From: Cyanobium sp. FGCU6
GTDB lineage: Bacteria > Cyanobacteriota > Cyanobacteriia > PCC-6307 > Cyanobiaceae
Reading direction: 5' to 3'
DNA length: 64,000 nucleotides
Assembly: GCA_024958655.1 (NCBI GenBank)
Contig: JANWUR010000008.1
Span: 62,001 to 126,000, forward strand
The translations under genes were made by a program, and so were the position numbers. Under the pieces are notes generated by a model, which saw nothing but the letters and a program-made list of their open reading frames with translations, was not told the DNA's origin and did not search any database. Shown here piece by piece: positions 36,762-42,763 of this stretch (the stretch's first letter is position 1; every line of letters begins with the position of its first letter).

Positions 36762-37232
36762 TCAGGGTGCAACGTCTTCGGCCTCTCCCTCGTCTTGCCG
36801 TCCTTCGCCCGGCTCGAGGGGAAGCAGCCAGATCGAGCCCGTTTCCTTGTGCAGTTCGATCCGGAACTCCTGGCCCGGGCTCAGACCCAGGCGCCGGGTG
36901 TAGGCCTGGCCGATCAGCAGGTTGCCGTTGCCGTGCACCCGCGTACGGAACTCGGCCTGACGACCCTTGCCGGCTCCGCTGCCGGTGCTGGTGGCTGGCA
37001 GGGCATAGCCCTTGGCGCTCACCAGCGCCCGGTAGAAGCTTTTCTTCAGCACCCGACCGCTGGGGCCCACATAGCCGCACGCCCGGGCGATCTGGTCTTC
37101 GGGTCGATTGCCCAGGGAGCGGGCCTTGTCGAGCAGGGCCTGACCCTCGAGCATCACGTTGGCGCCATCACGCCCGTGGAGGCGCCCATCGGATCCAGCG
37201 TCATCATCGCCGCTTGGTGATGCGGAGAACAT
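36762..37232 (-). CDS. cyAbrB-type transcriptional regulator
   Basis: AbrB-like DNA-binding regulator of the cyanobacterial class, whose members tune carbon/nitrogen balance and other genes. The conserved part is 'LLDKARSLGNRPEDQIARACGY' and 'RVLKKSFYRALVSAKGYALP', then the C-terminal AbrB hairpin 'FRTRVHGNGNLLIGQAYTRRLGL'. Start uncertain: ATG 37232 has AAAGG upstream, ATG 37250 adds six residues, and ATG 37154 would give only the 130-residue core. It lies 130 nt downstream of ctaE on the same strand. Confidence 0.85.
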   Translation of the reverse strand: MFSASPSGDDDAGSDGRLHGRDGANVMLEGQALLDKARSLGNRPEDQIARACGYVGPSGRVLKKSFYRALVSAKGYALPATSTGSGAGKGRQAEFRTRVHGNGNLLIGQAYTRRLGLSPGQEFRIELHKETGSIWLLPLEPGEGRQDEGEAEDVAP

Positions 37233-37362
37233 CCTGCCTTTCGGAGGCATTACCGCCTGCCTTCGATGATGGCCTGATTCTGCCGATTCACCAGCCGCTG
37301 CGGCAAGGGGGGAGTGGCGAGCTGCGCTGACCGGGCCCAGATCCGATGGCTCGAAATCATGG

Positions 37363-37998
37363 TCAGAGCAGATAGAGAAGGCCGTACAGCACAACCCAGA
37401 TCCCATCCACGAAGTGCCAGTAGAGCTCTGCAGCCTCGAGGCCGAAGGGGTTGGAGGCACTGATGCGTCCGCTCTCTCTCGCCTGCCAGCAGACGATCAG
37501 GATGCAGATCACCCCGAGGGTCACATGCAGGCCGTGGAAGCCGGTGAGGGCGTAGAAGGTGCTGGCGTAGAGGTTGTCGGTGAGACCGAAGGGGAGGTGG
37601 AAATACTCCACCATCTGGCCCGCCAGGAAAGCTGCCCCAAGGGCACCCGTCACCAGCAACCAGAGACGGGCCGCTTCCCCGTCGCCGCTCAGCAGACGTC
37701 GTCCGGCCCGGTGGAAGGTGACGCTGCTCACCAGCAGCAGCACCGTGTTGATGGTGGGCAGAAGCAGCTCCAGCTCGTAGGTGGAGTCCGCTGGGAGCGG
37801 ATTGACCGCTCGGAAGGTGAGGTAAGCGGCGAAGAAGCCGGCGAAGGTCATGCCGTCGGCGATCAGGAAGGTGGCCAGCCCGAACAGACGCACATCAGCA
37901 TGGCCCTCGTCATGGCTGCTTTCGTGGCCAGCGCCGTTCGGGGATGGCAGCGCCACCGCGCCGGCTGCTGTTGAGGTTTCGGGAGTGAGGGGTGTCAT
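37363..37998 (-). CDS. ctaE: Cytochrome c oxidase subunit III
   Basis: Third core subunit of the aa3-type terminal oxidase. 211 residues with five to seven hydrophobic helices. Family features: 'FLIADGMTFAGFFAAYLTFRAVNP', 'LLLVSSVTFHRAGRRL', 'STFYALTGFHGLHVTLGVICI' (the conserved TGFHGLHV) and 'LYWHFVDGIWVVLYGLLYL'. Last of the ctaCDE run, 57 nt after ctaD. Confidence 0.96.
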   Translation of the reverse strand: MTPLTPETSTAAGAVALPSPNGAGHESSHDEGHADVRLFGLATFLIADGMTFAGFFAAYLTFRAVNPLPADSTYELELLLPTINTVLLLVSSVTFHRAGRRLLSGDGEAARLWLLVTGALGAAFLAGQMVEYFHLPFGLTDNLYASTFYALTGFHGLHVTLGVICILIVCWQARESGRISASNPFGLEAAELYWHFVDGIWVVLYGLLYLL

Positions 37999-39771: not shown

Positions 39772-40650
39772 TCAGGCGAAGGGCGTAGCCGTGGCGGCGC
39801 TGACGGTGACGGGGGCCGGGCGATTGCTCGCCAGCCACGCTTCGAAAGCGTCGTCTTCGTGCACCACCACGGTGGAACGCATGCCGCCGTGATACGGACC
39901 GCAGAGCTCGGCACAGACGATGGGATAGCTGCCCGGCCGGGTGGCGGTGAAGCTCAGAAGCGTGGGCTGACCCGGGATCACATCCTGCTTGAGTCGGAAC
40001 TGGGGGACCCAGAAGGCATGGATCACATCATTGGCCTTCATGCGAAGTTGCACCGGCCGACCCACAGGAACATGCAGTTCGCCGCTGATGAAATCACCTT
40101 CGGGGTAGTGGAAGAGGAAGGCGAATTGGATGGCCGTCACGTCCACCGCCAGGGGTGGACTCTGCGGAGCTCCCTCAGCGATGCCGGCGTTGGCGATGCC
40201 TCCCCAGATGCGTTCCTCGGAGGTGTTGATCACAACGTCGGCCACCGAAGCCATCTCAGCGGCGGCGTGCATCGAGCTGTGATCATGGAGTGGTACCATC
40301 CCACCCATACGCTCGTAGATGTCGTAGCTGTAGATACCAACGAACAGCACGACGATCGCAGGGATGGCCGTCCAGACGATTTCGAGCGGCAGGTTGCCTT
40401 CGATCGCCAGCCCGTCGCCGAGTTCACCGGCCCGCCGTCGAAAGCGAACAAGACTGTACACCAAAAGCCCCACGATGCCGAGGAAGAGGATCGTGCCGAT
40501 GCTGAAAAGAACACGGAACAGGTCGTCGTAGACCGGCGCGTTCGCGCTGGCATCAACGGGCAGCAGCGAAACGTTCTGGCCGATCCAGAGGCCGGCGAGA
40601 ACAAGTCCCATGCCAAGTAGCAGGGTGATCAGAGGTGAGGGGATCGTCAC
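39772..40650 (-). CDS. ctaC: Cytochrome c oxidase subunit II
   Basis: Carries the CuA centre that accepts electrons from cytochrome c or plastocyanin. 292 residues with two N-terminal membrane helices ('LITLLLGMGLVLAGLWIG' and 'GTILFLGIVGLLVYSLVRF') and a periplasmic cupredoxin domain. CuA ligands: 'DVIHAFWVPQF' and 'CAELCGPYHGGM'. First gene of the minus-strand operon, with a -10-like TAGGCT 35 nt upstream. ctaA starts divergently 157 nt away. Confidence 0.96.
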   Translation of the reverse strand: MTIPSPLITLLLGMGLVLAGLWIGQNVSLLPVDASANAPVYDDLFRVLFSIGTILFLGIVGLLVYSLVRFRRRAGELGDGLAIEGNLPLEIVWTAIPAIVVLFVGIYSYDIYERMGGMVPLHDHSSMHAAAEMASVADVVINTSEERIWGGIANAGIAEGAPQSPPLAVDVTAIQFAFLFHYPEGDFISGELHVPVGRPVQLRMKANDVIHAFWVPQFRLKQDVIPGQPTLLSFTATRPGSYPIVCAELCGPYHGGMRSTVVVHEDDAFEAWLASNRPAPVTVSAATATPFA

Positions 40651-40684: not shown

Positions 40685-40690
40685 AGCCTA
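40685..40690 (-). promoter_or_regulatory. Candidate -10 element TAGGCT of the ctaCDE operon
   Basis: TAGGCT on the minus strand lies 34 nt before the ctaC start. It matches the TAnnnT pattern. The palindromes at 40755-40791 lie about 65-100 nt upstream of it, a position suited to an activator. Confidence 0.35.
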
Positions 40691-40754
40691 TGGGCGTCGC
40701 TCCGGGTGCGCGAGTCTGGCGGGGTGGAGTGTCACGATTGCCGCCAAAATTCAC

Positions 40755-40791
40755 AGGGAATCCCTGAGATGTGCGGGATCGCTCATCTCAG
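40755..40791. promoter_or_regulatory. Two palindromes in the divergent ctaC-ctaA region (candidate operators)
   Basis: AGGGA-A-TCCCT (40755-40765) is followed at once by the perfect inverted repeat CTGAGATG-N12-CATCTCAG (40764-40791). They sit between the oxidase operon and the heme A synthase genes. With TAACTT at 40801-40806 taken as the -10 of ctaA, the second repeat would flank its -35. Regulator unknown. Confidence 0.5.
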
Positions 40792-40806
40792 CGGACTCGC
40801 TAACTT

Positions 40807-41781
40807 GTGCATCCTCGCTTCTTGCGGGCCGTGGTCACGGCGTTTTCTCCACGACTGCTCCGAGCCCTGGTGCTGCTCTGTGCCCACCTCGTGGTGGCGC
40901 TGATCGCCCTGGTGGTGATCGGCGGTGTCACGCGTGTCATGGAGGCCGGTCTGGCCTGTCCGGACTGGCCCCTCTGCTACGGCTCCCTCCTGCCGGGGCG
41001 GCAGATGAACCTGAAGGTGTTCCTGGAGTGGTTCCACCGTCTCGACGCTTTCGTGGTGGGGGTTGCCCTGCTGGTTCTTGGAGTCGTCAGCTGGCTGCGC
41101 CGCAGCCAGCTGCCCGGCTGGCTTCCCTGGGCGGCCACCGGCGCCCTTGGCCTGGTGGCGGTGCAGGGTGCCCTCGGAGCCCTGACCGTGACGCACCTTC
41201 TGGAGGCTTCCACCGTCACAGCCCATCTCGCCACAGCCCTCGCCCTGGTGCTCGGCATGGCTGCCCTCCACCAGGCGCTGCTGGGCTCCCTTTCCCCAGA
41301 GCCCCTCGCCACGCCGCCGCTTCCCTGGCGGCTTGCCGCCCTGCTGGCAGGGGTTCTGGTGCCGGCCCAGTGTCTTCTGGGTGGCGCCATGGCCAGTCGC
41401 TGGGCGGCCGAACGCTGTTTCGCCGCAGGCGAGTCGTGCCGCTGGCTGCTGCTCCATCGGCTGGGGGCCTGGCCGGCGGTGCTGTCGCTTTTGCTGCTCG
41501 CCCTGCTGTCCCTCGCTCTGCCTGCATCACAGGCACAGCTGCGGCGCCTCTCCCTGGTGGCTCTGCTGCTGGTGGCGGCCCAGGTAGGCCTGGGGATCCT
41601 CAGCCTGCGGCTTCAGCTGGCCCTGCCGGCCGTGACGGCGGCCCACCAGTTGGTTGCCGCCCTCCTGGTGGCCCTGATCGGCGCCCTCTGGGGCCGTGGG
41701 CTGCTGCGGCCGTCCTCCCCGGCAGAGATCCCCTCGATAGCTCCTTCTCCTTCCCTCTACAGCGAGGCCCTTCGTGGTTAG
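40807..41781 (+). CDS. ctaA: Heme A synthase (CtaA/COX15)
   Basis: Converts heme O to heme A for the aa3 oxidase. 324 residues, eight hydrophobic helices in two four-helix halves. Typical motifs: '[24 protein letters not shown]', '[11 protein letters not shown]', '[27 protein letters not shown]', '[13 protein letters not shown]' and '[14 protein letters not shown]', containing the conserved heme-ligand His residues. The start may be GTG 40807 as in the track, or GTG 40831, because a -10-like TAACTT ends directly before 40807. The 3' end overlaps ctaB by 8 nt. Confidence 0.95.
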
Positions 41782-42763
41782 TGCTCCCCTGCATCCGGCC
41801 GCGTCCCGGCCCGTTTCCGATGTCCCACGCTCGGTTCGCCTGCCGGCCTGGCTGGAGGTGGCCAAACCCCGCCTGATCCCGCTGCTTCTGGCCACCACCG
41901 TCGGGGGGATGGCTCTGAGCGGGGCCTGGCCCCTCGATCCTCGCCGGCTGCTGGCCACCCTGGTCGGAGGCGCGATGGCGTCCGCTGCCGCGGGTGTTCT
42001 CAACTGCCTCTGGGAGCAGGAGCTCGACGGCCGCATGCAACGCACCAGCCGGCGGGCCCTGCCTTCGGGTCGGCTGGCCCAGCGCCAGGCGTTTCTGCTG
42101 GCGATCGCCCTCACCACCGGTTCGGTGCTGCTGCTGATCACGGCGGTCAACGCCCTGGCCGCCGCGCTCGCCCTGCTGGGGTTATGCAGCTACGTGCTGC
42201 TTTACACCGCCCTGCTCAAGCCGCGCACCACCCAGAACATCGTGATCGGCGGCATCGCCGGTGCCATCCCTCCCCTGGTGGGCGCTGCAGCCGCCAGTGG
42301 CCGGCTCGGCTGGGGTGGCTGGTGGCTGTTTTCGCTGGTGATGGTGTGGACACCGGCCCACTTCTGGGCCCTGGCCCTGCTCCTGCGCGACGACTACCGC
42401 TCCGTGGGGATTCCGATGCTGCCCGTGGTGAAGGGTGAGGCGGTCACGGCACGGGCCATCGGCTGGTACAGCTGGCTCACCGTGGCCCTCAGCCTCGGCG
42501 GCATCGCCGTTCTGCCCACGGGTGGCTGGCTTTACGGGCTTCTGGTGCTGCCGTTCAACGGCCGCCTGCTGCAGCTGAGCAGCCGACTGCAACGCAGTCC
42601 GGAGGAGGCGCAGCCCGCCCGCAACCTCTTCCGCTGGTCGATCCTTTATCTGTTCGGCATCTGTCTGCTGCTGGTGCTGGCGCGCACGGCGCCAGCCTCG
42701 GCCCTCGATCCCTCCCCCCTGCTGGGAGCTCTGCTTCAGCTGTCCCAGGCGGCCGCTGCCTAG
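41774..42763 (+). CDS. ctaB: Protoheme IX farnesyltransferase (heme O synthase)
   Basis: UbiA-superfamily membrane enzyme adding a farnesyl group to heme B. 329 residues. Prenyl-diphosphate/Mg binding: '[24 protein letters not shown]'; second motif '[29 protein letters not shown]'. It overlaps ctaA by 8 nt, which matches their sequential reactions. The start is GTG. The stop overlaps a -10-like TAGATT for the next gene. Confidence 0.96.

Follow-up and report, generated by a model that had tools for sequence, protein, structure and literature searches.

A conserved, single-locus inverted repeat between the divergent ctaCDE and ctaAB operons of Cyanobium as a putative shared operator

The divergent region between the cytochrome oxidase operon ctaCDE and the heme A synthesis operon ctaAB of Cyanobium sp. 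FGCU6 harbours a 20-bp inverted repeat that, as judged from its sequence and its conservation among relatives, is probably a lineage-specific, activating operator restricted to a single locus. With a probability of roughly 60%, we read the element as a shared operator of both operons, which would be bound by a dimeric protein activating at ctaA and helping ctaC. The window, by which we mean the whole stretch of 64,000 nucleotides that was analysed, contains the following genes in the vicinity of the element, assigned by their Pfam domains:

39772 to 40650, minus strand: ctaC, cytochrome c oxidase subunit II (COX2_TM and COX2)
40807 to 41781 (by ORF), plus strand: ctaA, heme A synthase (COX15-CtaA)
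41774 to 42763, plus strand: ctaB, UbiA-type heme O synthase (UbiA)
36762 to 37460, minus strand: cyAbrB-type gene downstream of ctaE (AbrB-like, with the AbrB domain in the C-terminal half of the ORF; also assigned by synteny)

Beyond ctaC, the window encodes CtaD and CtaE, followed by the cyAbrB-type gene. The 156-nt divergent gap between ctaC and ctaA given by the first-pass annotation holds for the ORF starts at 40650 (minus strand) and 40807 (plus strand). Between the two operons, the elements are arranged as follows:

40685 to 40690, minus strand: proposed ctaC -10, TAGGCT, of the TAN3T type, recognized by a family-wide ..CCTATG.. on the plus strand and a constant distance to the operator
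40718 to 40759, no strand: second block of conservation, lying between operator and ctaC -10, recognized in the conservation profile and the alignment and kept in both copies where the region is duplicated
40755 to 40765, no strand: small palindrome AGGGA-A-TCCCT, extending to CAGGGAATCCCTG (40754-40766) and judged a chance repeat
40764 to 40791, no strand: perfect palindrome CTGAGATG-N12-CATCTCAG, consisting of the core and 4 nt on each side
40768 to 40787, no strand: putative core operator GATGTGCGGGATCGCTCATC, an inverted half-site GATGNGC with an N6 spacer; inner 16 bp TGTGC-N6-GCTCA at 40770-40785
40801 to 40806, plus strand: ctaA -10, TAACTT, in a conserved CGCTAACTTG, with CTANNTT at +32 from the core start

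Both palindromes that the first-pass annotation had described side by side are thus present in the DNA. Their fate in close relatives, on which that annotation had let them stand or fall, separates the two, as the second is conserved and the first scrambled; the comparison indicates that the second palindrome is genuine and maintained by selection, unlike the first. Perfect 5-1-5 repeats such as the small palindrome, written AGGGAATCCCT, occur 147 times in the window (P ~0.18 per 180-nt stretch) and the corresponding sequence in the closest relative, Cyanobium sp. FGCU52, reads CACAGGCTGACCCTGAG; on account of this chance-level frequency and the scrambling, the small palindrome was rejected as a functional element. 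The palindrome with 8-bp arms occurs once in the 4.07-Mb genome and has, from the single sequence, a marginal chance probability of P ~0.04. Its full perfect arms are common only to the window and FGCU52, in which all 28 bp are the same, while the 20-bp core finds no second match in the 4.07-Mb genome even with 3 mismatches. As defined by the alignment, the conserved unit is the 20-bp inverted repeat GATGTGC-N6-GCNCATC at 40768-40787, not the full 8-bp arms.

The region was taken from the 41 genomes of the genus that possess ctaA (one of 42 is without the gene) and from many genomes of the family. The core, GATGTG(C/A)-N6-(G/C)CNCA(T/C)(C/G) or a close variant, starts exactly 32 nt before CTANNTT in 36 of the 41 genomes, with exactly 12 nt from the end of the core to this ctaA -10 in 36 of the 41; as these genomes share ancestry, the 36 with exact spacing do not amount to 36 independent observations (effective number ~10). 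Two main forms of the core are found, GATGTGCGGGATCGCTCATC of the window type and GATGTGCTGATTCGCACATC, and the CtaA proteins are only ~64% identical between the subclades. In the stacked alignment of 35 sequences (effective number ~10), the core columns hold 1.6-1.9 bits of information, the ctaA -10 ~1.3 bits and the block at 40718-40759 up to 1.5 bits, with mostly 0.3-0.6 bits in the surroundings, where columns adjoining the site are close to neutral. Across 22 variants of the site, T-G-T-G, C15 and A18 are invariant.

Such conservation bears on two readings that would deprive the palindrome of a role as DNA operator. A chance palindrome or a functionless repeat related to HIP1, the sequence of which is GCGATCGC, is hardly credible: the P value of ~0.04 in the single sequence and a centre, GGGATCGC, one mismatch away from HIP1 point in this direction, but the core is conserved genus-wide with exact spacing and unique in the genome, and the second subclade has TGATTCGC, which is not HIP1, in the centre. 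For the core, the alignment of relatives refutes the chance reading. Very unlikely is also an RNA hairpin, acting as attenuator, terminator or leader, or a position within a small ORF. While an 8-bp stem could arise from the perfect arms and the window has an open frame, ATGTGCGGGATCGCT, paired cells amount to 70% versus 69% in shuffles with pair 5-16 broken in 16 of the 22 variants, there is neither a match in Rfam nor a T-run terminator at the core, and the frame stops at once in the other subclade (ATG TGC TGA). A plasmid origin was tried as well and rejected.

Outside the genus, members of two other genera (L104, L136, L130 and L131) have palindromes of the type GGTGAGGGAAC(G/C)CTCACC in the gap between ctaC and ctaA, at a long distance from the ctaA -10; these may be diverged relatives of the site. 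The palindrome of the window is absent from Prochlorococcus-like and marine-type genomes (L102, L107-L111, L117, L118, L138 and L140), in which other conserved stretches, TGTCAGGRATRGGWGATTT and GTTGCAGTCGTCCATACAACGTGACG, precede ctaA.

Within each genome, the site is essentially tied to one place. Throughout the 42 genomes of the genus, the strict pattern RATGTGMN6GCNCATC matches this locus and only two stray positions, and the reversed control pattern has zero matches. The exact composite of site and -10 was found 25 times in 84,980 species genomes, and at all 25 loci the oxidase genes of the ctaC/ctaA region were recognized. The records concerned are named Cyanobium, Synechococcus, Aphanothece, Microcystis elabens and unnamed cyanobacterial MAGs, with one labelled Bifidobacterium breve; this MAG contig (CALPNT020000005.1) bears a cyanobacterial ctaCDE/ctaAB region and the record is evidently mislabelled. 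A search for a regulon with the strict and one-mismatch patterns recovered no further target common across the genus. Three genomes only (L090, L091 and L098) have a near-match, GATGTGC-N6-CCACATC, at a distance of 76 nt from a downstream SHOCT-like gene; where orthologues of this gene were found in the others, no such near-match precedes them. That a dedicated regulator binds here, as the first-pass annotation inferred, would be consistent with the restriction of the site to a single locus in each genome, the regulator itself being putative.

The geometry of the region links the site to both promoters. TAACTT as the ctaA -10 is supported by its conservation, as is the position of the second palindrome over the ctaA -35 region. 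No -35 hexamer is present 15-19 nt upstream of the ctaA -10 in the window (best 2 of 6), nor at the ctaC promoter (best 2 of 6), and in six sequences of the genus that were checked, matches at both promoters reach 2-4 of 6 at best. Where the ctaC -10 is recognisable, 23 sequences have a distance of 80 from the operator start to the TATG of ctaC and four a distance of 90, with no other value, the extra 10 bp, one helical turn, falling between block and operator. The geometry is thus exact towards the ctaA -10 and takes two values one turn apart towards that of ctaC. Transcription of ctaA would, as estimated from the -10, start near 40813, and the operator centre would, from the estimated starts, lie near -35.5 of ctaA and near -100 or -110 of ctaC. 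If transcription does begin there, the GTG at 40807, which abuts the conserved -10, cannot be the start codon of ctaA; the true start is probably downstream, for example at GTG 40831. This in-frame GTG is the better candidate, with a CTG at the same place in the closest relative.

The block adjoining the operator reads AAAATTCACA in the window and AAATTTCACATT in other genomes and is separated from the operator by 12 nt or 22 nt. It is a possible second protein site, as far as its sequence indicates, and its TTCACATTC..TTCGCA loosely forms a direct repeat.

Genomes in which the two operons have been pulled apart show what travels together. In 12 genomes of the genus, a channel-like gene, which by our reading of the sequence would encode a membrane protein, is inserted between the two operons, and two copies of the site are found, one before ctaC and one before ctaA. 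Among these split genomes are L143, L144, L153, L158-L162 and others, with the same promoter core on both flanks of the inserted gene. Ten of these pairs could be aligned: identity between the copies is 97% for the core and 88-95% for the block, but drops to 21% in the surroundings of the ctaC -10 and to 55% at the ctaA -10. Of the two -10s, each copy has retained solely that belonging to its own gene. As core and block are kept in both copies while the -10s diverge, the two behave as one module.

On the other hand, ctaCDE has moved elsewhere in the clade of G037, G023 and G038, as well as in the genus of G091. The relocated ctaC of G037, G023 and G038 has no recognisable site, while ctaA in the G037 clade keeps a diverged one, TTGTGTTGAGACACTSATC; the tie of the site to ctaA is therefore firmer than that to ctaC, and the site may mainly serve ctaA. 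In G023, the stretch ahead of ctaA contains about four tandem repeats of an 18-bp unit similar to CTGATCTGTGTTGAGACA, which apparently arose by amplification of the diverged operator.

These observations are also those on which a reading restricted to ctaA can build, in which the site acts as operator of ctaA alone, with a repressor over the -35 as its most likely binder, the block controls ctaC and the fixed distance to ctaC is inherited packing. Both the overlap of the site with the -35 region and the relocated ctaC without a site next to a ctaA with a diverged version are in its favour. Yet the copy on the ctaC side of the split genomes keeps the site (97%) despite having lost the ctaA -10, and the sole change in distance to ctaC is 10 bp, so that we regard this reading as unlikely, although it deserves consideration. 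The copy on the ctaC side could alternatively serve the inserted channel-like gene. The proposal of an operator shared across the divergent region, made by the first-pass annotation, stands with respect to a conserved operator, its link to ctaA being the firmer one.

According to the shared-operator reading, a dimeric DNA-binding protein would recognise GATGTGC-N6-GCNCATC and control the divergent ctaCDE and ctaAB operons. At ctaA, the protein would activate by standing in for -35 recognition, and it would help ctaC from upstream, together with whatever binds the block. The fixed spacings, the single locus, the lack of -35 hexamers, the adjoining block and the unit kept in both copies of split genomes are the features that suggest this reading. 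More tentatively, and at less than even odds, a lineage-specific regulator devoted to one target region may couple heme A synthesis to the aa3-type oxidase in Cyanobium-type cyanobacteria via one operator per genome; the regulator would replace -35 recognition, and its operator would have been duplicated together with the block where the operons have been pushed apart. Beyond a few model strains, little is known of how picocyanobacteria balance respiration with photosynthesis. The short, unique and highly conserved site offers a direct handle on the regulator, and the split-promoter genomes provide a natural test of whether both operons need the site.

With respect to the protein, the cyAbrB encoded beyond ctaE had been brought up as a binder. 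The ctaCDE-cyAbrB synteny is indeed conserved, but this adjacency is family-wide and extends to Prochlorococcus-like and marine-type genomes that do not possess the site, and cyAbrB proteins are described as broadly acting nucleoid proteins (review PMC13421787), a mode of action that fits one 20-bp site per genome poorly. Regulation of the region by cyAbrB is consequently highly improbable.

OmpR-type regulators bind direct repeats, and RpaA and RpaB, the clock/redox regulators of this type, have many targets. Control of the region by RpaA or RpaB, with the palindrome as part of their binding, would agree with a review in which ctaAB and ctaCDE appear among the RpaA targets of Synechococcus elongatus PCC 7942 (PMC13421787) and with the loose direct repeat in the block. 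A direct-repeat motif of the OmpR type is, however, not found in the core, which is an inverted repeat at one locus, and we consider this explanation improbable for the core; RpaA or RpaB may well bind the neighbouring block instead.

A dimer of the CRP/FNR family is the leading class for the putative binder, a pointer given by the TGTG-N8-CNCA geometry rather than an established result. In a comparison of 13 genomes, three CRP-type proteins are present in 7 of 7 genomes of the genus: NtcA, the L074 type and a CRP whose gene adjoins that of a PhoB-like regulator (L069 type). Some genomes lack the SyCRP-like and small CRP types, which were therefore rejected as a universal binder, should the binder be a CRP; the phyletic pattern does not discriminate among the remaining types. 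At the nine CRP-type loci of the own genome, no good site that would point to autoregulation was found.

In the open papers searched, the site is not described, and to that extent it is new as a specific element; its kind, a shared regulatory site of divergent operons, is ordinary, while its form is unusually clean, being conserved, single-locus and modular. Compared with the SyCRP1/CRP site TGTGA-N6-TCACA, it has the same 16-bp length and register, is likewise an inverted repeat with an invariant left TGTG, and shows TGTGA in some neighbouring lineages, but the base after TGTG is C and not A in the genus and the right arm is GCNCA. At cyanobacterial promoters activated by CRP, ~22 bp separate the site from the -10 (PMC2633013), a spacing not found at ctaA, where it is 15 bp throughout the genus; in some other genera, the distance is, by eye, 23 bp. 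The 15-bp spacing is better suited to a repressor or to an activator that overlaps the -35. With the NtcA box, GTA-N8-TAC followed by a -10 ~22 bp downstream, the site shares the class of half-site spacing, a -10 of the TAN3T type and the lack of a -35 hexamer, whereas its left half is GTG instead of GTA, the right TAC is missing and the spacing to the -10 is too short; none of the 22 variants conforms to this box, all having TGTG on the left and no TAC on the right. Common control of the same pair of operons has been reported for RpaA in PCC 7942, with many targets there versus a single-locus inverted repeat here that is absent from most of the other genera examined. The arrangement as such resembles divergent promoters that share one operator region, with a common regulatory core between two -10s, and differs from these in that the core has been duplicated as a unit where a gene separates the promoters.
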